Below are positions 40,036-50,967 of a stretch of 64,000 nucleotides of DNA, piece by piece (positions within the stretch are counted from its first letter, which is position 1; each line of letters begins with the position of its first letter). Under the pieces are notes generated by a model. The model had not been told where the DNA came from. It worked only from the letters and a program-made list of their open reading frames with translations, and made no database searches. A program made the position numbers and the translations under genes. Origin of the DNA: a bacterium (GTDB lineage Bacteria > Oederibacteriota > CAKKQC01); NCBI GenBank assembly GCA_919901855.1, contig CAKKQC010000030.1, positions 1-64,000 of the forward strand, read 5' to 3'.

Positions 40036-42663
40036 ATGGCGAAACGTCCGAAATCCGCACCCGCCGCCCCGGCTCGCCCCGGCGGCCCGGCGCGCCCCCC
40101 GCGGGAGTTCGCGCTGGCCGCCATGCTGGCCGCCTCCCTCGCCTGGGCCTGCGTCGCCGTGTTCTGGGCCGTCCGGACCTGGCCCCAGAACTTCCCGACG
40201 GCCCGCATGCTCGTCGTGATCTGGGCCGGGCTTCCCGGCTGGACGTGGTCGGGAGCCATGATCCGGGTGGGCACCTACGCCGCGACCGCCCTCCTAGTGC
40301 TCGGCGCTCTCGGCCTCGCGCTCGGCGCCGGCCAGGCCGTGGCCCGGCTCGCCGCCCCGCGAGGGAACCGCGCCTCGTTCGCCCTCACCCTCGCGCTCGG
40401 GTTCGCCGGCCTGTCGCTCGCAGTGACCGGGTGCGGGTTCGCGGGGCTCATGTCCCGCCTGCCCCTGCGCCTGCTGGCCCTCGGCGCGCTCGGCCTCGGC
40501 CTCCGCGAGCTGGCCGCCCGCCGCGCCGTCCTCGGCGAAGCCGGGGGGACATTCCGCGACCAGCCCGCCTCCACCGCCTTGTCGCTCGCCGCGGCCGTGG
40601 TCCTCTGGATCGTCTTCACGGCCCTCCCCGACACGCACGAGGACCCCCTCGTCTACCACTGGGCCGCGCCCGAGTACTTCCTCCGCGTCGGCCGCCTCGT
40701 CGGCGTGCCCTGGCACTTCCAGTGGCACAACCCCCTCGGGATCGAGATGCTCTTCGGCTTCGGGCTCGCGCTGGCGGGGCCTTTGGGCATCAAGGCCATG
40801 AACCTCGCGCTCGTCGTGACCGCGCTCCTCGCGACCGCGGCCCTCGCGCGCCGGTTCGACCCGCGGGCCCGGGGCTGGGCCGCCGCGACGATCCTCGCCC
40901 TCTCCCCCGCCGTCGCCGAGCAGGTCTGGATCGCGAAGAGCGACCTCGGGCTCGTGACGTTCTGGGCCGCCGCGTTCCTCGCACCGCTGGAATGGCCCCT
41001 CTCCCGCCCCGGCGGGGCCATCGCGGCCGGCGTCCTCGCGGGATTCTGCGGAGCCGTCAAGTGGACCGCCGTCTTCCCGCTCACCGGGCTCGCGGCCTGG
41101 CTCCTCCTCAAGGGGCCGCGCCGAAACGGCGTCGTCCTTATCGCCGTCGCCGCCCTCGTGACCGCGATCGCTTGGCCGCTGCGGAACTGGCTCACGGCGG
41201 GCAATCCCGTGCTGCCGTTCCTCTCGCGCTGGTTCGACGTCCCGTGGTGGGGCCCGGATTTCGAGAAGGCCGTCCACACGTACGCGGGGCGCGTGACCCC
41301 CGCGGGCCAGATCTCCCAGATGTACTGGCTCCTCGCGTGGCGCGACGTCTTCGGCGAGCCGAACGCGCTCGGCCTCGCTCTCGCGGCGCTGGCCCCCTTG
41401 GGGCTCGCGGCGTTTCTGCCGCCCGCCGCCGCGGCCGCTTGCGCGGTGAGCGTGCTGACCTTCCTGATCCTCTTGACGGAGCGGAACGCCCGGTTCCTCC
41501 TCCCCCTCGTGGCGCTGGTCGCCGCCGCGGGCGAGGCCGCCGCCCTGACCCTGCGCGGCACCTGGCCGCGGGTGGGCCGCGCGGTCTGGATCGTCCTGCT
41601 CGGAGGATCGGTCCTGCACCTCGGCGCCAAGGTCGTGGGCTTCATCTCGCCCTACGGCTGGTGCTGGACCTTGGGGTTGATGACGAACGGGGAGCTCCAC
41701 CGGGCGGAATCGACCGTGCTCGAGGAGGTCCGGACCTGGTCCGCCGCCAACCTTCCCGCCGACGCCCGGATCCTGCTCGAGGGCGAGCAGAAGCGGTTCG
41801 GGTGGCGCCAGCCGGTCGTAAGCGCCCACGTCGTCGTCGTTCCGCTCCCGTGGCGCTGGGCGAAGGCGTCGTGGAGCGCGGACGACCTGGCCAAGAAGTG
41901 GCGCCAGGCGGGAATAAAATACGTCGCGCACAACCTCGTCTCGGCCCGGTTCCGGCACCAGATATGGTTCTCGGGGCCCGGGTGGGACGACCGGGCCCTG
42001 AAGATCTACCGCGCGTTCGGCCTCCGCTACCTGACCGAGGTGCACCGCTCGGCGCACCTCGACTACCTCAACGGCTTCTACTACGTCCTGCGCGTCGACG
42101 CCCGGCCCCATCCCCCCCGGCGCACGGTGCCCGTCCTCCCTTGGACGGAGGCGCTCTTCGCATACGCCAACGCGGCCTCCAAGCCGGCCACCGCCGCGCT
42201 CGGGCGGCAAGCCACGCTCGAGACCCTCGCGCGGGTGCCTGACGTCGAGGACGCGGTCGAACAGGCGGCCATGAACCTGCACTCGCTCGGCGACAACCGA
42301 AGCGCCATCGCCCTGAACCGGGCGCTGGCCGGGGTCGGGTACGACGGCGAGGCGGCCTGGTTCAACCTCGCGGACGAGGAGAGCCGGGCCGGATTCCGGC
42401 GCGCCGCCTTCGTCGCCCTGCGCCAGGAGAACCGCCTGTCGCCCTCGTTCAACGACAAGATCCTCGAGCTCGAAGCCGTCCTCTTCTATAACTGGATGCT
42501 CGAGCGGGCGAAGGTGGGCGATCTCGAGGGATGCTGCCGCCTGCTCGACATGTGCCTTCGCGCCAACCCCGGCTTCCAGGCCGCCGTTTCCGCGTCCGAC
42601 CAGCTCGGGTGCGAGCACGGACGGTCGGTGCGCCCGGTCGGGAAGTTCCTCTTCACCAAGTGA
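40036..42663 (+). CDS. GT-C-like membrane protein with TPR-like tail, tandem copy 1
   Basis: An 875-residue protein and the first of three head-to-tail paralogues. A basic Pro/Ala N-terminus leads into roughly twelve membrane spans. ALPDTHEDPLVYHWAAPEYFLR, at about 197-218, is the acidic first loop expected of a GT-C transferase active site, and CGAVKWTAVFPL and AGNPVLPFLSRWF follow. A soluble periplasmic region holds VSAHVVVVPLPWRWAKAS and KKWRQAGIKYVAHNLVSARFRH; the last ~130 residues are helical repeats. GTGA overlap with copy 2. Probably transfers sugar from a lipid carrier; acceptor unknown. Confidence 0.75.
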   Translation: MAKRPKSAPAAPARPGGPARPPREFALAAMLAASLAWACVAVFWAVRTWPQNFPTARMLVVIWAGLPGWTWSGAMIRVGTYAATALLVLGALGLALGAGQAVARLAAPRGNRASFALTLALGFAGLSLAVTGCGFAGLMSRLPLRLLALGALGLGLRELAARRAVLGEAGGTFRDQPASTALSLAAAVVLWIVFTALPDTHEDPLVYHWAAPEYFLRVGRLVGVPWHFQWHNPLGIEMLFGFGLALAGPLGIKAMNLALVVTALLATAALARRFDPRARGWAAATILALSPAVAEQVWIAKSDLGLVTFWAAAFLAPLEWPLSRPGGAIAAGVLAGFCGAVKWTAVFPLTGLAAWLLLKGPRRNGVVLIAVAALVTAIAWPLRNWLTAGNPVLPFLSRWFDVPWWGPDFEKAVHTYAGRVTPAGQISQMYWLLAWRDVFGEPNALGLALAALAPLGLAAFLPPAAAAACAVSVLTFLILLTERNARFLLPLVALVAAAGEAAALTLRGTWPRVGRAVWIVLLGGSVLHLGAKVVGFISPYGWCWTLGLMTNGELHRAESTVLEEVRTWSAANLPADARILLEGEQKRFGWRQPVVSAHVVVVPLPWRWAKASWSADDLAKKWRQAGIKYVAHNLVSARFRHQIWFSGPGWDDRALKIYRAFGLRYLTEVHRSAHLDYLNGFYYVLRVDARPHPPRRTVPVLPWTEALFAYANAASKPATAALGRQATLETLARVPDVEDAVEQAAMNLHSLGDNRSAIALNRALAGVGYDGEAAWFNLADEESRAGFRRAAFVALRQENRLSPSFNDKILELEAVLFYNWMLERAKVGDLEGCCRLLDMCLRANPGFQAAVSASDQLGCEHGRSVRPVGKFLFTK

Positions 42664-45200
42664 CGGCGGTCCTCGCGGCCGGGCTCGGATGGGCTGCGCT
42701 CGTCCTCGTCCAGGCGTCCGCGGGCTGGCCGGAAGCCGGAGGCGCGTTCCATAGCCTGCTCGCCGCCTGGGCCCAGGGCCCCGACGGTTCGTGGGGCGGC
42801 GTGCTGACCCAGGCTGCCCGGGTCCTGGCCGCGGCGGGGCTCGTCCTCGGCGCCCTCGCGGCCGCGCTGGGGACGGGCGACGCGGCGTCGCCGCTCATAG
42901 GGCGGCGGCGGCTTCCGCTCGCGCTGTCGCTGCCCTTGGGGCTAGCCCTGCTCTCGGCCGCGACGGCGGGTCTCGGGCTCGCCGGGGCCATGACGCCCGG
43001 GGTCCTGCGCGGCCTCGCCCTGGCCGCATGCCTCAATGGATTCCGCGCCATTCGCGCGCGGGGGCCGGAGCTCGCGGCCGCCGGCCGCTCGTTTGCCTCC
43101 GAGCCGGTCTCGACGGCCGTCGCGTGCCTCCTCGCCGCCGCGCTCTGGCTCGCGCTCGCCACCCTCCCCGATTCCCACGAGGACGCGCTCGTGTACCACT
43201 GGGCCGCGCCCGAGGCGTTTCTGCGCGCGCACCGCATCCACGCCGCCGTCCAGCACTTCCAGTGGCACGGTCCCCTCGGCGTCGAGATGCTCTTCGCGCT
43301 CGGACTCGCGGTCGCGGGCGTGGCCGGACTCAAGGCCGTCAACCTCGCCCTGCTCGCCGCCGCCGTCGCCGGGGCGGGCGCGCTCGCCCGCCGTCTCGAC
43401 CCCCGGGCCCGCGGCTGGACGGCCGTCGCCCTGCTCGCCCTCGCGCCGGCGCTGGTCCGCTACGTGTGGATGGCCAAGAACGATCTCGGGGCGGTGGTCT
43501 ACTGGACCGCCGCGGCCCTCTCCATGCTCGCGGGGTCCGCTGGATCCGGGCGCGGCGCGCAACGCAGCACGCGACGCGCTGCGCTATTGGCCGGCCTGTT
43601 CGCGGGCGCCTGCGCGGCGACGAAGTACACGGCGATCTTCCCCCTCGCCGGGCTGGTCGCCTGGTTCGTCCTGCATCGTCCGAGTCCGCGGACGATCCTC
43701 CTCGCGGTCCTTTCGGCGGCGGCGACCGCCGCCGTGTGGCCCGCGCGGGACTGGCTGGTCACCCGCGACCCCTTCTACCCGCTGGGTCCCTCTTCCCTGC
43801 ACGGGCTTTTCTGGAGCCCCGAGTACACGGACTGGCTCCACCGGTATGCCGAGCAGGTGACCCCCGTCCTGACCGAGCGGCCCTCGTACTGGCTGCTCGC
43901 CTGGCGCGACTCGCTCGCGGACCCGGCCCAATTCGGGATCGCGCTCGCCGCCCTCGCCCCGCTCGGGCTGGTCGCCTTCCTCCCGGGCGGCGCGGGGCTG
44001 GCGTGCGCCGTGGCGCTCCTCGTGTTCCTCGCCCTGCTCGGGGAGCGGTCGACGCGGTTCCTCCTGGCGCTGGCGCCGCTCCTGGCGGCCGGCGGCGAAC
44101 TCGCCCTGCTCGCCCTCCGGTCCGCCCGGCCCCGGCTGGCGGCGGCCGCCTGGTTGGTCCTGGTCGCCGCCGGCGCCGTCCACCTGGCCGTCGGGACCGC
44201 TCTCGAGCTGCCGGGCGACGACTGGGGCTTCCTCGCTGGCCGGCTGCATGGGCCTAAGTTCTTCGCCCGCCGGTACACGGCCGAGGAAGAGCTCCGCGCC
44301 TGGTGCGCGGACCGGTGCCCCGCGTCCGAGCGGATCCTGCTGACCGGAAGCGACCGGCGGTTCGGGTTCCGCCAGCCCGTCGTGAGCGCCCACCCGGTCA
44401 CGATGCCGCTTCCCTGGCGCTGGGCGAAGGAGTCGTGGACCCCCGGGGAGCTCGCGAAGAAGTGGCGGCAGGCGGGCATCGGGTGCATCGCGCACAACCT
44501 CGTCTCCGGACGCTACCGGCACGAGGCGTGGTTCCCGTGGCCCGCGTGGGACGACCGCGCGCTGGGCGTCTACCGCGCATTCGCCCGCCGGTACCTCGTC
44601 GAGGTCCATCGCACGCCGTACCTCGACGCCCTCAACGGCCTGTTCTACGTCCTGCGGGTCGACCGGCGGCCCCACCCGGCGGCCGCCACGGTGCCGGTCC
44701 TGCCGTGGACCGAATCGCTCTTCGCCCGCGCGAACCAGACCGCGCGCCGGAGCTTCCTGCGCGACGAGAGCCTCGCCCTCACGCGCGACGCGCTCGCGCG
44801 GCTGCCCGACGTGAACGACGCCATGGAGCAGGCCGCGACCCTGTACCACCAGCTCGGCCGGCTCGACCTCGCGCTCGCGCTCAACCGCGCGCTCGCCCGC
44901 GACGGGTTCAACGGGGAAACCGGCTGGTACGAGCTCGCGGTCGAGGAGAGCTACGCCGGCCGGCGCGCTCCCGCGTTCGCCGCGCTCCGGCACCGGTCGC
45001 GGTACGCCGCGTATTTCAGCGAAGATACGGACACTCTCGTGGCCGGGCTCTTCCTCAACTGGGCGGAAGCGCGAGCGCGGGCCGGAGATTCGGCGGGCGC
45101 CTGCCGCCTGCTCGGCATCCTGTTCCGGACCGCGCCCGGCCACGGCCCCGCCACCGCGCTTGCCCGCCGGCTCCGGTGCGCCGGAAGCGGCGCCCCATGA
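42660..45200 (+). CDS. GT-C-like membrane protein with TPR-like tail, tandem copy 2
   Basis: An 846-residue paralogue of its neighbours with the same layout: LPDSHEDALVYHWAAPEAFLRAHRI as first acidic loop, CAATKYTAIFPLAGLVAWF, TRDPFYPLGPSSLHGL, then VVSAHPVTMPLPWRWAKESW and KKWRQAGIGCIAHNLVSGRYRH. The start is GTG 42660 overlapping the stop of copy 1. It lacks the basic N-terminal extension of copy 1. It is closer to copy 3 than to copy 1 (shared RDPFYPLGP, LLTGSD, RYTAEEELR/RYTADEEIR). Confidence 0.8.
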   Translation: MTAVLAAGLGWAALVLVQASAGWPEAGGAFHSLLAAWAQGPDGSWGGVLTQAARVLAAAGLVLGALAAALGTGDAASPLIGRRRLPLALSLPLGLALLSAATAGLGLAGAMTPGVLRGLALAACLNGFRAIRARGPELAAAGRSFASEPVSTAVACLLAAALWLALATLPDSHEDALVYHWAAPEAFLRAHRIHAAVQHFQWHGPLGVEMLFALGLAVAGVAGLKAVNLALLAAAVAGAGALARRLDPRARGWTAVALLALAPALVRYVWMAKNDLGAVVYWTAAALSMLAGSAGSGRGAQRSTRRAALLAGLFAGACAATKYTAIFPLAGLVAWFVLHRPSPRTILLAVLSAAATAAVWPARDWLVTRDPFYPLGPSSLHGLFWSPEYTDWLHRYAEQVTPVLTERPSYWLLAWRDSLADPAQFGIALAALAPLGLVAFLPGGAGLACAVALLVFLALLGERSTRFLLALAPLLAAGGELALLALRSARPRLAAAAWLVLVAAGAVHLAVGTALELPGDDWGFLAGRLHGPKFFARRYTAEEELRAWCADRCPASERILLTGSDRRFGFRQPVVSAHPVTMPLPWRWAKESWTPGELAKKWRQAGIGCIAHNLVSGRYRHEAWFPWPAWDDRALGVYRAFARRYLVEVHRTPYLDALNGLFYVLRVDRRPHPAAATVPVLPWTESLFARANQTARRSFLRDESLALTRDALARLPDVNDAMEQAATLYHQLGRLDLALALNRALARDGFNGETGWYELAVEESYAGRRAPAFAALRHRSRYAAYFSEDTDTLVAGLFLNWAEARARAGDSAGACRLLGILFRTAPGHGPATALARRLRCAGSGAP

Positions 45201-47713
45201 ACGCGCTCCTGGCCGTCGCGATTGGCTGGAGCCTGCTCGTGGTCGCGCAGACCCTCGGCAGTTGGACGGAGGCAGCCGATCCGCTGCGCGCGCTGATTCG
45301 TGCCTGGGCGATCTCCCCCGAATGGACCATGGCCGGAGGGTTGGCGCAGGCCGGCCGGGTCGCGGCCACCGTGGGGCTGACCCTCGCCGCCCTCCTCGCC
45401 GCACTCGGGGCTGGCGAGGCGGTCGCCGGACCCGTTACGCCGCGGCGCGGGAGGCTCCCGCTCGTCGTATCGTTTGCGCTCGGGCTGGGCACGCTCTCGG
45501 CGCTGGCGGCGGGGCTCGGATTCGCCGGCCTCCTGGCGCCCGGGGCCCTCCGGGTCCTCGTGGTCGGCGCCATCGCCCTCGGGCTGCGCGCCGCGCACGC
45601 CCGCCGCGCGGAGTTCGCCGCCGTCGCGCGGTCGTTCGCGGGGGAACCCGTGGCCACCGCCGCCGCGCTGGTCGCGGCAGCCGTTCTCATGGCCCTCCTC
45701 GCCTCGCTCCCCGACACGCACGAGGATCCCCTCGTCTACCACTGGGCGGCTCCCGAGGCATTCCTGCGCGCGCACCGGATCTACCCCGCCGTCCAGCACT
45801 TCCAGTGGCACTGGCCGCTCGGCGTCGAGATGGTCTTCGCCTGCGGCCTCGCGACCGGCGGTGTGGCCGCGGTCAAGGCCGCGACTCTCGTCTTCCTCCT
45901 CCTCGGATGCGCCGGCGCCTCCTCGATCGCGCGGCGCCTCGATCGCGGGGCGGCCGGCTGGACGGCCGCCTGCCTCGTCGCCCTCGCCCCCGCGATCGCG
46001 TACCACGCATGGCTCGCCAAGAACGACCCCGGGGTCACGGCTTTCTGGGCCGCAGCCGTCGTCGCCATGCTCGCGTGGCCTCCCCGCTCGGCGCGCGGCG
46101 CCCTCATCGGGGGCATTCTCGCCGGCTTCTGCGCCTCGACGAAGTACACGTCGTTCCTCCCCCTCGCCGCGCTCGCCGTCTGGTTCGGCCTCCGGCGTCC
46201 GGGCCTCCGGGCGCTCGGGCTCGCGGTCGGCGCGGCCGTGGTGGTGGCCGCGCCCTGGCCCGCGCGCGACTGGCTCCTGACGCGCGACCCGTTCTACCCG
46301 CTGGGACCCGAAGCCCTGCACGGACTCTGGTGGGCGCCCCCGTACACCCGCGCCCTTCATCTGTACGCCCAGCAGGTGACCGCGATCCCGGCGGGAGGTC
46401 ATCCCGGCCTGTGGCTGTCCTGGCGCGACGCGTTCGCGGACCCCGGCCAGGCCGGCCTCCCGCTGGCCGCCCTCGCGCCGCTCGGACTCGTCCTCTGCCT
46501 CCCCGGAGCCGCGGGCGTTGGCGCCGCCGTCGCCCTCGCCCTCTTCCTCGTGACGCTCACCGAGTGGGACTTCCGGTTCCTGCTCCCGCTCGCGCCGCTC
46601 ATCGCCGCCGGGGGCGAAGTCGCGCTGCGGCGTCTCCGGGATCTCGCGCCCCGCTACACTTCCGCGGGCTGGGCGATCCTTGCCGCCGTTGGGAGCGCGC
46701 ACCTGCTCGTCCGGGTCATCGTCCAGCTCCCGCCGGACGACTGGAGCTTCCTTACCGGCCGGCTCGCCGGCCCCGCGTTCTTCGCCCAACGGTACACGGC
46801 CGACGAGGAAATCCGCCGGTGGTGCGCGGACCGCCTACCCCCCTCTGAACGGATCCTGCTGACCGGGAGCGACAAGCGGTTCGGGTTCAGCCAGACGGTC
46901 GTGAGCAGCCACGTCGTCACGATGCCGCTCCCGTGGCGCTGGGCGAAGGAGTCGAGGACCCCGGAGGAGCTGGCGAAGAAGTGGCGGCAGGCGGGCATCG
47001 GATGCATCGCCCACAACCTCGTCTCCGGCCGGTTCCGGCACCAGGGCTGGTTCACGGGCCCGCCGTGGAGCCCGCGCATGCTCGGCGTGTACCGCGCGTT
47101 CGCCAAGCGGTACTTCACCGAGGTCCACCGCTCCCCCCGGATGGACTACGCCAACGGCTTCTTCTACGTCCTGCGCGTCGAGGCCCGCCCGCATCCCGAG
47201 GCCCGCACGGTGCCCGTCCTGCCCTGGACCGAGGCGGTCACCGTCGATGTCCGCATCGCCGGAAACACGGGCGCCTCGAAGGCGAAATGCCTCGACCTGA
47301 CAGACCGGGCCCTCCGGCTGCTGCCCGACGTGGACGACGCGGTGGAGACGGCCGCCTACGCGTGCGCGCAGACGGGCGCCTTCAACAAGGCGCTCGAGCT
47401 GAACCGCGCGCTCGCCGCCCGGGGATTCGACGGCGAGATCGGATGGTACGAGCTCGCCGTGAGCGAGAGCTTCCTCGGCCGCCGTCCCGCCGCATTCGCG
47501 GCCGTGCGGCGGTGGACGGGGCTGGTCGGCGGGCTCGATCCCCGCGCCCACGAGCTGGCCGCGACCGTCTTCGTCAACCTCGCGGGCGCCCGCGTGCACG
47601 CCGGCGACGGGGCCGGCGCCTGCCGCCTGCTCGCGATCGCGCTCCGGGTCAAGCCCGGCTTCCCGCAGGCGCTCGCGGGCCTCGCCGATCTGCGCTGCCC
47701 GCCTGTGAGGTAG
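45197..47713 (+). CDS. GT-C-like membrane protein with TPR-like tail, tandem copy 3
   Basis: An 838-residue paralogue. Segments: LPDTHEDPLVYHWAAPEAFLRAHRI, CASTKYTSFLPLAALAVWF, TRDPFYPLGPEALHGLWW, RYTADEEIRRWCADRLPPSERILLTGSDKRFGFSQ (in several pieces), VVSSHVVTMPLPWRWAKES, KKWRQAGIGCIAHNLVSGRFRH. Around 46977 and 44457 the DNA of copies 3 and 2 is nearly identical over tens of bases, so the duplication is fairly recent or under conversion. ATGA overlap with copy 2 makes all three genes one coupled unit. Confidence 0.8.
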   Translation: MNALLAVAIGWSLLVVAQTLGSWTEAADPLRALIRAWAISPEWTMAGGLAQAGRVAATVGLTLAALLAALGAGEAVAGPVTPRRGRLPLVVSFALGLGTLSALAAGLGFAGLLAPGALRVLVVGAIALGLRAAHARRAEFAAVARSFAGEPVATAAALVAAAVLMALLASLPDTHEDPLVYHWAAPEAFLRAHRIYPAVQHFQWHWPLGVEMVFACGLATGGVAAVKAATLVFLLLGCAGASSIARRLDRGAAGWTAACLVALAPAIAYHAWLAKNDPGVTAFWAAAVVAMLAWPPRSARGALIGGILAGFCASTKYTSFLPLAALAVWFGLRRPGLRALGLAVGAAVVVAAPWPARDWLLTRDPFYPLGPEALHGLWWAPPYTRALHLYAQQVTAIPAGGHPGLWLSWRDAFADPGQAGLPLAALAPLGLVLCLPGAAGVGAAVALALFLVTLTEWDFRFLLPLAPLIAAGGEVALRRLRDLAPRYTSAGWAILAAVGSAHLLVRVIVQLPPDDWSFLTGRLAGPAFFAQRYTADEEIRRWCADRLPPSERILLTGSDKRFGFSQTVVSSHVVTMPLPWRWAKESRTPEELAKKWRQAGIGCIAHNLVSGRFRHQGWFTGPPWSPRMLGVYRAFAKRYFTEVHRSPRMDYANGFFYVLRVEARPHPEARTVPVLPWTEAVTVDVRIAGNTGASKAKCLDLTDRALRLLPDVDDAVETAAYACAQTGAFNKALELNRALAARGFDGEIGWYELAVSESFLGRRPAAFAAVRRWTGLVGGLDPRAHELAATVFVNLAGARVHAGDGAGACRLLAIALRVKPGFPQALAGLADLRCPPVR

Positions 47714-48459: not shown

Positions 48460-49656
48460 ATGACCACGCCCGACCTGCACGAGATGACCGTCAAGGAGAT
48501 CCGGATCGACGGCGATCAAGCCGCGATCGTGTTCGCGGACGCCGGGACCGGCGACATCCTCCCGTACCCGGCCGAACCGGCCGCGGCCCATGCTCTCCAG
48601 CTCGAGCTGGACGGCACGCCAGGCGGGAAGCTGACAGTATCGAGCCTGCTCGAGAACACGATCGCGCATCTCGACGGCAAGTTCGTCCGCGCCGAGATCG
48701 CGTTCAGCCCGCGCCCCGGTCCGTCCGCCCATCTCGTCCTGTCCCAGGAGGGCCGCGAGGGGAAGATGCCGGCCCGGATCACGGACGCGGTCGCGCTCGC
48801 CCACCGGCACCAGGTCCCCGTCTGCGCAACCGCCGAAGCCCGGCAGCGGATGTGCGTCCACGCGGGCGAGACCGGGGCCTCGACGGCCACCATGGATTGG
48901 AACGAGACGTACCGCCTCGTGATGGGGTTCACCGCGCTCGGCCGTGTGGACGACGCGATCCCCGGGCTACTCCGGCTCCGGGAGCTCGAGCCTTCCCGCG
49001 AGAGCTGGTGCGCGCCGCTGGGCGCCTTGTACCGGAAGAAGGGCTGGCTCACGCACGCGGCCGCCGGGTACGCAAAGGCCCTCGCGTGGAGCGTTCGGGA
49101 AGGCTACCTCACCAGCGCGGCCGAGATCGCCCGGGAGATGGGGATGATCGCCTTCGGCGCCGTACCCCCGATGACGCTCCAGGCCCCGGCGGTCATCGAG
49201 GACTTCGCCAGCCCGCAGTTCAACAACGAATGGTGGGGCGCCGGCGAGGTCGTGCCCGCGCCCGGGGGGCACCCGGGCATGGCGTACCGGCTCGGCCTCG
49301 ACCGTAAGTGGATGATCGTCAGGCTCCTCGGCGGCCATACATGGGAGGGAGCCCGGGCCGTCTGCCTCGACGTCTTCGTCGCGCCCGAAGCCGTGGCGGC
49401 CCAGCCGCTGCCCGTCGGCGTCTCGCTCTCGCTCGCGGGTCCGCGGCAGGGCTGGTATCACGTGGCCCCCCGTAATCTCGGCCCCGGATGGAACCGGCTC
49501 ACGGTCCCGCTGGGCGACCCCATTTGGAACGAGGGGGAACGCAAGGCCCTCCGGCTCGACGGGAATCCGCTCGCGACGGTCACGGAATTCCAGATCGGCA
49601 TGGATGATCGGCCGCCCTGCGGCGCCCTCTACCTCGCGAACATCCGGCTGGAGTAA
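48460..49656 (+). CDS. Bifunctional-nuclease-domain (DUF151) protein fused to carbohydrate-binding-like domain
   Basis: A 398-residue protein. Residues ~7-125 match the BFN/DUF151 pattern: VKEIRIDGDQAAIVFADAG, LPYPAEPAAAHALQLELDG, TVSSLLENTIAHLDGKFVRAEI and PARITDAVALAHRHQVPVCAT (in the family, P-S-D-A-I-A-L-A-x-R). Residues ~145-240 look like helical TPR-type repeats (FTALGRVDDAIPGLLRLRELEPS). From ~245 a beta-sandwich (VIEDFASPQFNNEWWGAGEVV ... RLTVPLGDPIW ... LYLANIRLE) resembles galactose-binding domains. No signal peptide. BFN proteins have reported RNase/DNase activity; this three-part fusion is unfamiliar to me. The 3' end is duplicated at 50948. Confidence 0.65.
   Translation: MTTPDLHEMTVKEIRIDGDQAAIVFADAGTGDILPYPAEPAAAHALQLELDGTPGGKLTVSSLLENTIAHLDGKFVRAEIAFSPRPGPSAHLVLSQEGREGKMPARITDAVALAHRHQVPVCATAEARQRMCVHAGETGASTATMDWNETYRLVMGFTALGRVDDAIPGLLRLRELEPSRESWCAPLGALYRKKGWLTHAAAGYAKALAWSVREGYLTSAAEIAREMGMIAFGAVPPMTLQAPAVIEDFASPQFNNEWWGAGEVVPAPGGHPGMAYRLGLDRKWMIVRLLGGHTWEGARAVCLDVFVAPEAVAAQPLPVGVSLSLAGPRQGWYHVAPRNLGPGWNRLTVPLGDPIWNEGERKALRLDGNPLATVTEFQIGMDDRPPCGALYLANIRLE
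49636..49655. repeat. 20-bp direct repeat, left copy (gene 3' end)
   Basis: GCGAACATCCGGCTGGAGTA, the ANIRLE-stop end of the preceding gene. It matches 50948-50967 in 19 of 20 bases and flanks the YhcG gene. Confidence 0.9.
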
Positions 49657-49698
49657 TGGTGCCGTTACACGTGACATCCCATTCCGCCGGTCGCTCGT

Positions 49699-50844
49699 TC
49701 ATCGGTTCCCGTTCTCCCGATCCAGTCTTGCCCGGTCCACCTCGAGCAGGTGCCGGATGTCATCGGGCTTGGGTAGTGAGACCAAATAGCGGGAAACAAA
49801 GAGGGATTTGTCCAATCCAGCAGTGGCATACTCAACCTTCGCCTCGTCCTTGTCACTGCACAGGAGCAGGCCCACGGGAGGCTGGTCGCCCTCGGCCATC
49901 ATCCGGTCCTTCCAGTAGTTGAGGTAGAAGTTCATCTGGCCGGCGTCCGCGTGCCGGAAGGCACGGATCTTGAGGTCGATGAGGAGATGACAGCGGAGAA
50001 CGCGGTGGTAGAAGACAAGGTCAATGTAGTCGTGCTCGTTGCCAACCGTGATGCGCTTCTGGCGCGCCTCGAAGCAGAAACCGGTGCCCAGTTCGAGCAG
50101 GAACGCCCGCAGGTGGTCCAGTAGCGCCGTCTCGAGATCGCTCTCGCGGAGATGATGCTGTTCGGCCAGGCCCACGAACTCGAGAACATAGGGATCACGA
50201 ATCAGGTCTGCAATTCCATCGCGCGCGCCATCCGCCTGTCGCCGCGCGGCGTCGATGACTGCGCGCTTATTCGTGGACAAACCGGTGCGCTCGAACAGAA
50301 GCGAGCCGATCTGACGTTGAAGCTGGCGCTTGGACCAATTCCCCCTGAGGATCTCGTTCTCGTAGAAAGCCCGCTTCCAGGGATCCTCCAGGCGTACGAG
50401 TTCCGCCAGGTGAGTCCAGGAAAAGCGCAACACGGCATCCCTGCTCAACGGTGTCGGGGACGAGACGCAGGAATTCCGCGCCGACGGTGCGGGTTTCCCT
50501 GCCTTCAGCGATTTCCGCACCGCCGGTGCGGAAATGGGAGCCAACTGCGGGTAATGGAGGTGGAGCAAACGCATCCGCTCCAACATGTCGGGACTTGTCC
50601 CCGCAACCCCCTTGCGCACGAGATCCTCCGAAAGCCGGGTCAGGAGCCCCGCCCCATACGCCGCGCGATCCTTCCCTTCCTGTTGATACTCGACGATGTG
50701 ACCGCCGATAATCCAGTTGCGCAGGACCAGCGCCTGGTTGACCGCCACCACGGCGCGCGCTGCGGATTCCCGGTGAACCGCGGTGATGGCCTTGATGAGT
50801 GTCAGGTAGTTCATGCGTCCCGTTCCCACCCGAGTCGCTCTCAT
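49699..50844 (-). CDS. YhcG-family (DUF1016) PD-(D/E)XK nuclease
   Basis: A 381-residue protein. The N-terminal DUF1016_N helical domain (RNWIIGGHIVEYQQEGKDRAAYGAGLLTRLSEDL) is followed by the linker and LRFSWTHLAELVRLEDPWKRAFYENEILRGNWSKRQLQRQI. The C-terminal nuclease domain has FCFEARQKRITVGNEHDYIDLVFYHRVLRCHLLIDLKIR, with the D-(x)n-D-x-K active-site pattern. Family members accompany restriction or defence genes but are often solitary; their role is uncertain. Strong ribosome site AGGAGG, 6 nt before ATG. The gene lies between 20-bp direct repeats and opposite to its neighbours, suggesting acquisition. Confidence 0.9.
   Translation of the reverse strand: MRATRVGTGRMNYLTLIKAITAVHRESAARAVVAVNQALVLRNWIIGGHIVEYQQEGKDRAAYGAGLLTRLSEDLVRKGVAGTSPDMLERMRLLHLHYPQLAPISAPAVRKSLKAGKPAPSARNSCVSSPTPLSRDAVLRFSWTHLAELVRLEDPWKRAFYENEILRGNWSKRQLQRQIGSLLFERTGLSTNKRAVIDAARRQADGARDGIADLIRDPYVLEFVGLAEQHHLRESDLETALLDHLRAFLLELGTGFCFEARQKRITVGNEHDYIDLVFYHRVLRCHLLIDLKIRAFRHADAGQMNFYLNYWKDRMMAEGDQPPVGLLLCSDKDEAKVEYATAGLDKSLFVSRYLVSLPKPDDIRHLLEVDRARLDRENGNR
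50512..50534. repeat. 10-bp-stem hairpin inside the YhcG gene
   Basis: TTTCCGCACC (50512-50521) and GGTGCGGAAA (50525-50534) are exact reverse complements around GCC. It lies in the variable linker between the two YhcG domains. Confidence 0.8.
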
Positions 50845-50850
50845 CGGCGT

Positions 50851-50856
50851 CCTCCT
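50851..50856 (-). promoter_or_regulatory. Strong ribosome binding site AGGAGG
   Basis: AGGAGG with spacer ACGCCG before ATG 50844 fixes the start of the YhcG gene. Confidence 0.85.
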
Positions 50857-50947
50857 GATTCAACCGTAGCGCCCCAGCCCCGGCCTGGAACATGTAAAAT
50901 GGCCGCCTTGCCAACAGGTGGGCAAACGGATCTCGACCTCCACCCCA

Positions 50948-50967
50948 GCGAATATCCGGCTGGAGTA
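50948..50967. repeat. 20-bp direct repeat, right copy
   Basis: GCGAATATCCGGCTGGAGTA, one mismatch from 49636-49655. It still reads ANIRLE-stop in one frame but is detached from any gene, as if the 3' end had been duplicated when the YhcG cassette arrived. Confidence 0.85.

Follow-up and report, generated by a model that had tools for sequence, protein, structure and literature searches.

The window analysed here, a 64,000-nucleotide stretch of bacterial DNA, contains a gene for a YhcG nuclease with a perfect 25-bp palindrome inside its coding sequence. The explanation that best accounts for the observations as a whole, to which we assign a probability of roughly 0.6, is that this is an acquired YhcG combining a ParB-like helix-turn-helix (HTH) with a PD-(D/E)XK nuclease, and that its own gene encodes the site that the ParB-like domain would read. 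The wider proposal, that nearly every YhcG gene carries in frame a site read by its own ParB-like domain, with reader and site co-evolving and being swapped as a block, we hold at slightly better than even odds.

The yhcG gene and its two domains

The gene and its parts, in the numbering used throughout, are as follows.

49699..50844, minus strand: yhcG, encoding DUF1016_N and a PD-(D/E)XK nuclease; 381 residues in the numbering used here
49750..50208, minus strand: PD-(D/E)XK nuclease domain, residues 213-365 (YhcG_C in Pfam; EndoMS/NucS fold match with Z 12.3)
50554..50598, minus strand: predicted HTH recognition helix, residues 83-97 (aligned by hhalign with ParB GKSR..VAN..R; co-varies with the palindrome arms)
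50284..50424, minus strand: segment aligned by hhalign with ParB 'LSxGHAR...LSVR', residues 141-187, holding residues 144, 147 and 172, which co-vary with inner arm positions

The identification as YhcG in the initial annotation is borne out by Pfam matches to DUF1016_N (2.7e-27) and YhcG_C (1.8e-54), both above their cut-offs, and by a D..DxK active site, present as D275 and D290-L-K292, with D275 and K292 invariant in the family alignment. The window gene thus shares both domains and the active site with the YhcG/DUF1016/COG4804 PD-(D/E)XK family (E. coli YhcG; PDC-S02), and the PADLOC profile PDC-S02, a phage-defence candidate, matches it at 6.6e-119. The true start is probably Met11 (50814), because homologues begin MNY. 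In a structure search the nuclease domain proved similar to EndoMS/NucS and to further PD-(D/E)XK enzymes.

The GC content of the cassette is 61.7% compared to 71-75% in the flanking genes, and the best homologues, 60-75% identical, belong to Gammaproteobacteria, Verrucomicrobiota and Omnitrophota, while relatives inside its own phylum reach at most 50% identity. Because the GC content is below that of the flanks and the closest kin are in other phyla, we regard yhcG, on composition and kinship, as a horizontally acquired single gene. The family as a whole has a horizontal, multi-copy distribution over chromosomes, plasmids and proviruses; the K-12 yhcG is matched, at least partly, by 4,417 of 5,426 E. 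coli genomes. Elsewhere in the window, 42531-47713 holds a pair of large, mutually similar ORFs in tandem, one of 889 aa at 42531-45200 and the other within 44303-47713; by appearance they are membrane-protein paralogues.

Comparison of the N-terminal domain with ParB by hhalign gave a probability of 82.8% and a score of 43.5, against scores of at most 20.7 in 25 column shuffles and 13.1 for the reversed profile. In the helix part, GFS..NL..MR.FY of YhcG pairs with GKSR..VAN.LRLL of ParB, and in the second part LSWTH..LL.I.D..R.FY.....WSVRQL pairs with LSxGHAR.LL.I.D.......LSVRE.E. The structure search matched the Noc DNA-binding domain over residues 42-186 with Z 6.8, a value that is weak alone for a helical domain, and Pfam HTH_ParB gave a sub-threshold match in one YhcG member that did not reach the cut-off. 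The best reading by profile is that the N-terminal half is a ParB/Noc-like HTH domain. In our own reading of the hhalign alignment, YhcG residues 83, 84, 90, 144 and 147 correspond to ParB K171, S172, N178, G201 and R204, which are reported parS contacts; in ParB the recognition helix contacts the outer base, and G201 is a specificity residue for the inner base, by which parS and NBS are told apart (PMC7383237). No ParB CTPase (ParB/Srx) domain was found in YhcG, for which Pfam gives DUF1016_N and YhcG_C only. The protein would thus work like ParB-parS and yet is not a ParB, since it has no CTPase domain and does not reach the HTH_ParB cut-off.

An in-frame palindrome and the residues that vary with it

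Two palindromes lie within the window gene.

50511..50535: perfect 25-bp palindrome ATTTCCGCACCGGCGGTGCGGAAAT (in yhcG sense), 12+1+12, codons 104-112, in a low-confidence linker
50472..50496: second, degenerate palindrome, 9/12 pairs, in the same frame as the first and 39 bp further on

The first is laid out as ATTTCCGCACCG-G-CGGTGCGGAAAT. BLAST comparison of the cassette with distant YhcG loci gave exact or near-exact matches of 25-29 bp in mid-gene, between genes otherwise about 69% identical. At up to three mismatches the palindrome has a single copy in its own genome, with no dispersed copies there, and the genomes of ten homologues gave few matches. A palindrome at the same place and in the same frame occurs in about 85% of 153 distinct yhcG genes from several phyla, proviruses and E. 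coli K-12, a clear one being missing in about 15%. In the first set, 60 of 64 YhcG ORFs form at least 10 of the 12 pairs, 46 at least 11 and 29 all 12. Synonymous-codon shuffles that keep the protein (1,280 in number) reached at least 11 pairs in 1.1% of cases and 12 pairs in none, and 15 of 530 control ORFs reached 11. The independent sets (Verrucomicrobiota and Pseudomonadota genomes; viral contigs) reached at least 11 pairs in 32/54 and 26/35 genes, compared with 3/540 and 0/350 shuffles, and 91 of their 93 palindromes fall in one reading frame.

The general form is ATT-N7-CASTG-N7'-AAT, with the end letters ATT/AAT and the centre conserved. The arms differ from gene to gene with complementarity kept: mutual information is 0.9-1.45 bits at paired arm positions and at most 0.49 off the diagonal. 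The encoded peptides vary (ISAPAVRKS, ILQSLTEEF, ISQTVSAKF), and the segment forms a linker in the structure model, with pLDDT 59-68 between neighbours above 90 (the first model had pLDDT 54, which a deeper alignment raised to 81.5). Since the peptides differ, complementarity stays and the segment is a low-confidence linker, the encoded protein does not explain the palindrome. This linker lies exactly between the two halves of the ParB-like domain.

Across 107 genes, the arm letters depend on residues 86, 89 and 90 in the recognition helix, 144 and 147 in the 'GHAR' equivalent, and 172 in the 'LSVR' equivalent. For these six residues z ranges from 5.7 to 14, falling from 14 to 8.7 over 86, 90, 89, 144 and 147, relative to a null in which arms were permuted solely among genes of the same cluster, the clusters being based on the nuclease domain. 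The map is ordered, with residue 89 assigned to arm positions 8-9, 86 to 7, 90 to 5-6, 147 to 4, and 144 together with 172 to 3; the polarity is that of ParB, recognition helix outer and 'GHAR' equivalent inner. Between protein pairs less than 40% identical the correlation is r=0.32, while 300 random sets of residues did not exceed 0.13. With residues selected from half of the data, the remaining half is predicted with r=0.50, the best of 1,000 random sets giving 0.467. In the second set by itself, several columns from outside the ParB-like domain rank too, so the list of co-varying residues is inexact. Because the arm letters change with the DNA-reading residues, the pattern suggests that each nuclease reads the site in its own gene.

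Two comparisons illustrate the dependence. Homologues L053 and L058 differ from the window gene, among the six residues, only at 172 (K to V), and their arm position 3 changes from C to T. Between the yhcG genes of E. coli K-12 and 2022N21-074-17, identity is 97.9% before, 58.9% across and 97.1% after a block of about 190 bp that contains the recognition helix and the palindromes. The two alleles differ at residues 86 (K/R) and 89 (R/W) and at arm positions 7-9 in both arms of the first palindrome, whereas arm positions 3-6 are unchanged, and of the residues mapped to these positions 172 alone differs (V/A). From this comparison, the E. coli reader and its site appear to have been exchanged together. 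Since helix and palindrome lie close, exchange of such blocks alone yields part of the correlation. If reader and site co-evolve and are swapped as one block, the protein and its address would be inseparable.

From the profile alignment and the co-variation we infer that a YhcG dimer would bind both arms of the duplex palindrome in its own gene, recognition-helix residues 86/89/90 reading the outer arm positions 5-9 and residues 144/147/172 the inner positions 3-4. Weighing against such self-reading are genes with two to four palindromes whose arms differ, as one protein should not read all of them equally well. A query of 2.9 million viral contigs with three exact 25-mers recovered two of them, solely within yhcG genes, and the third was absent. 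This confinement to yhcG fits self-recognition and gives no pointer to foreign targets.

The arms within one gene differ and still remain complementary, with 36 paired against 16 single changes, which is also what would be expected had the palindrome been selected as a hairpin, in mRNA or in single-stranded or cruciform DNA, and were it read by shape, for example by a nuclease domain like that of Holliday-junction resolvases. The nuclease domain has indeed been placed near YraN/Holliday-junction resolvases (PMC1189080), and in E. coli deletion of yhcG is synthetically lethal with dnaB, dnaN and parE hypomorphs (PMC2672614). Reading by shape, however, has no need for particular DNA-reading residues to track particular arm positions, and we consider the hairpin rather unlikely. 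Its mRNA form was rejected, as the sense strand has no excess of G.U-type pairs: such mismatches are not favoured over A.C, at 62 to 77 overall and 19 to 44 at inner positions. Single mismatches in the inner arm favour A.C over G.T on the sense strand by 44:19, against a codon expectation of about 55%, as if pairing of the antisense strand mattered more; this slight excess beyond the codon expectation was noted post hoc. It is very improbable that an old, functionless palindrome has stayed perfect through template switching or the correction of quasi-palindromes, a known process that would produce paired changes, given that frame, place and length are constant across many phyla, that the end letters and centre are conserved, and that the arms co-vary with HTH residues on either side of the linker.

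Several further observations concern the palindromes and their surroundings. The E. coli K-12 yhcG has three palindromes, and four other YhcG genes (L062, L069, L071 and L072) have three to four each, with different arms and spaced by multiples of three bases. A second DUF1016 gene in the window's own genome (L212, G000 C14:22459-23308) is broken and retains the N-terminal domain only; its palindrome, ATTCAGCACGCAGTGCGTGCTGAAT, is perfect with arms that differ from those of the window gene, and homology ends directly behind it. In E. coli O157:H7 AC-5 (L096) and ERL04-3476 (L098), yhcG is frameshifted by a deletion of about 80 bp that removes two of the three palindromes. In E. coli FDAARGOS_401 (L093) and others (H50-H59) the gene is cut directly behind the third palindrome and a transposase gene adjoins; this break recurs across many genomes. 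Alignment breaks at the palindrome in E. coli resembled cleavage but were set aside as evidence for it, since in those read the partner is IS1, a remnant of IS629 or a different transposase gene.

The 20-bp repeat and the arrival of the gene

The surroundings of the gene include the following features.

48460..49656, plus strand: upstream gene, with a BFN (bifunctional-nuclease) domain (Pfam BFN_dom, 1.5e-07) and a C-terminal region ending NIRLE
49636..49655, plus strand: direct repeat copy 1, GCGAACATCCGGCTGGAGTA, the final 20 bp of the upstream gene (ANIRLE-TA)
50948..50967, plus strand: direct repeat copy 2, GCGAATATCCGGCTGGAGTA, with one mismatch to copy 1, upstream of yhcG

The initial annotation had noticed that the upstream gene's closing 20 bp, encoding ANIRLE-stop, recur with one mismatch beyond yhcG in a copy attached to nothing. 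Both copies were located as described (19/20 identity, spacing 1312 bp). Copy 2 stands beyond the minus-strand yhcG, at a distance of 103 bp upstream from its annotated start, and extends no reading frame of the upstream gene. The repeat score of 17 compares with a maximum of 13 when the two 200-bp flanks were shuffled 1,500 times and of 16 in 1,500 cross-locus flank pairs; the repeat is real and above local chance. That yhcG is alone, without a recognisable integrase, holds as well, as it is the sole gene between the repeats. Insertion of yhcG behind the upstream gene by illegitimate recombination, leaving a 20-bp target duplication, is the probable course of events.

Among orthologues of the upstream gene the nearest, from a genome of the same family and a sister genus (G001), is 35% identical in amino acids and has one copy of the end, matching at 17/20. 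That genome has no YhcG, and at an orthologue identity of 35% the agreement with an empty site is weak. The sigma-factor gene downstream has no orthologue in this one same-family genome compared. If the target duplication is true, a yhcG-free site in the same genus would consist of one 20-bp copy joined to GCCGGGCGCCC.

The upstream gene has paralogues in its own genome on contigs C28, C54 and C6. The 3' end of the C28 paralogue, whose protein is about 30% identical, matches the 20-mer with one mismatch (19/20), and a conserved protein C-terminus alone can therefore mimic the repeat. For this reason it is a live alternative, if a somewhat unlikely one, that copy 2 is what remains of a paralogue once present in tandem, with the same NIRLE C-terminus, the body of which was replaced by yhcG. 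Upstream of copy 2, however, there is no trace of a paralogue, and a degenerate NIRLE-stop pattern is found only at these two sites in the whole 4.68-Mb genome.

The initial annotation had also likened the cassette to an integrating element settled in a gene's 3' end. On this reading the gene end would serve as the attachment site, and the integrase would act in trans or have been lost. A foreign single gene is indeed bounded exactly by a repeat that restores the gene end, but neither an integrase nor a tRNA was found at the cassette, nor any terminal inverted repeats of note, and outside the ORF the flanks of YhcG homologues have no conserved ends in common. The further cassettes at the same site for which it had proposed a search were not found, and the 20-mer on C28 is unoccupied. 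In a survey of 141 YhcG loci in two sets, the first set had an excess of flanking direct repeats (13/56 vs 5/81 control genes, p=0.004), but this was not replicated in the second (3/85 vs 6/121 control genes). Flanking repeats were accordingly rejected as a general YhcG trait and are a minority one. The best fit is an insertion that duplicated a short stretch of target. Site-specific integration is unproven, because integrase, tRNA and inverted repeats are missing, the enrichment was not replicated and illegitimate insertion suffices; we judge it distinctly improbable. Eight YhcG genes of other genomes (L075, L079, L015, L010, L046, L034, L120 and L123) are bounded by long direct repeats of 36-108 bp (59 bp at L075, 49 bp at L015, 44 bp at L010), which could be either genuine target duplications or repeats of local origin.

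Known systems and possible purposes

The protein family is known, and the literature searched on it makes no mention of an in-frame palindrome or of a ParB-like DUF1016_N; we found no paper on this link. With ParB-parS and Noc-NBS, YhcG shares an HTH followed by 'LSxGHAR..LSVR' segments, a palindromic site, and corresponding residues assigned to outer and inner bases (PMC7383237). It differs in having a nuclease in place of the CTPase domain, and in a site of 25 bp, compared to 14-16 bp, with hypervariable arms and in frame in nearly every member's own gene. The parS of B. subtilis likewise lies inside parB. Restriction-modification genes can insert with long target duplications, according to Nobusato et al. 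2000 as cited in PMC3031569; like them, the window nuclease gene is bounded by a putative target duplication without a transposase, but its duplication is only 20 bp and the nuclease is alone. Rickettsia palindromic elements and REP sequences also place palindromes in coding sequence, whereas the YhcG palindrome is not dispersed, is private in sequence to each gene and is fixed in place. As in the exchange of target-recognition domains in Type I restriction HsdS, a specificity block is swapped between near-identical flanks, but in YhcG the reader and its own DNA site would travel together in one gene.

As to purpose, YhcG may sit on its own coding sequence and repress or sense its own gene, and thereby be held in check. 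Given binding, the most likely purpose is self-control of this kind, in which an intragenic operator or tether would restrain a dangerous nuclease, a tentative preference that falls short of even odds. We favour it in view of the EndoMS/NucS-like nuclease fold, the family's standing as a phage-defence candidate (PDC-S02) and the synthetic lethality of yhcG deletion with the replication-gene hypomorphs mentioned above. Recognition of kindred or related incoming copies is a secondary possibility, and conditional cutting an alternative; cleavage at the site would be conditional or absent, since the site lies uncut in its own gene.

YhcG is among the commonest uncharacterised bacterial nucleases, and a co-varying site in its own gene is a concrete clue to what it reads. 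If the proposed reading is true, the family would constitute a natural library of matched protein-DNA specificities, from which a recognition code might be read, and its coding sequence would be at once a message and the binding site of the protein that it encodes.
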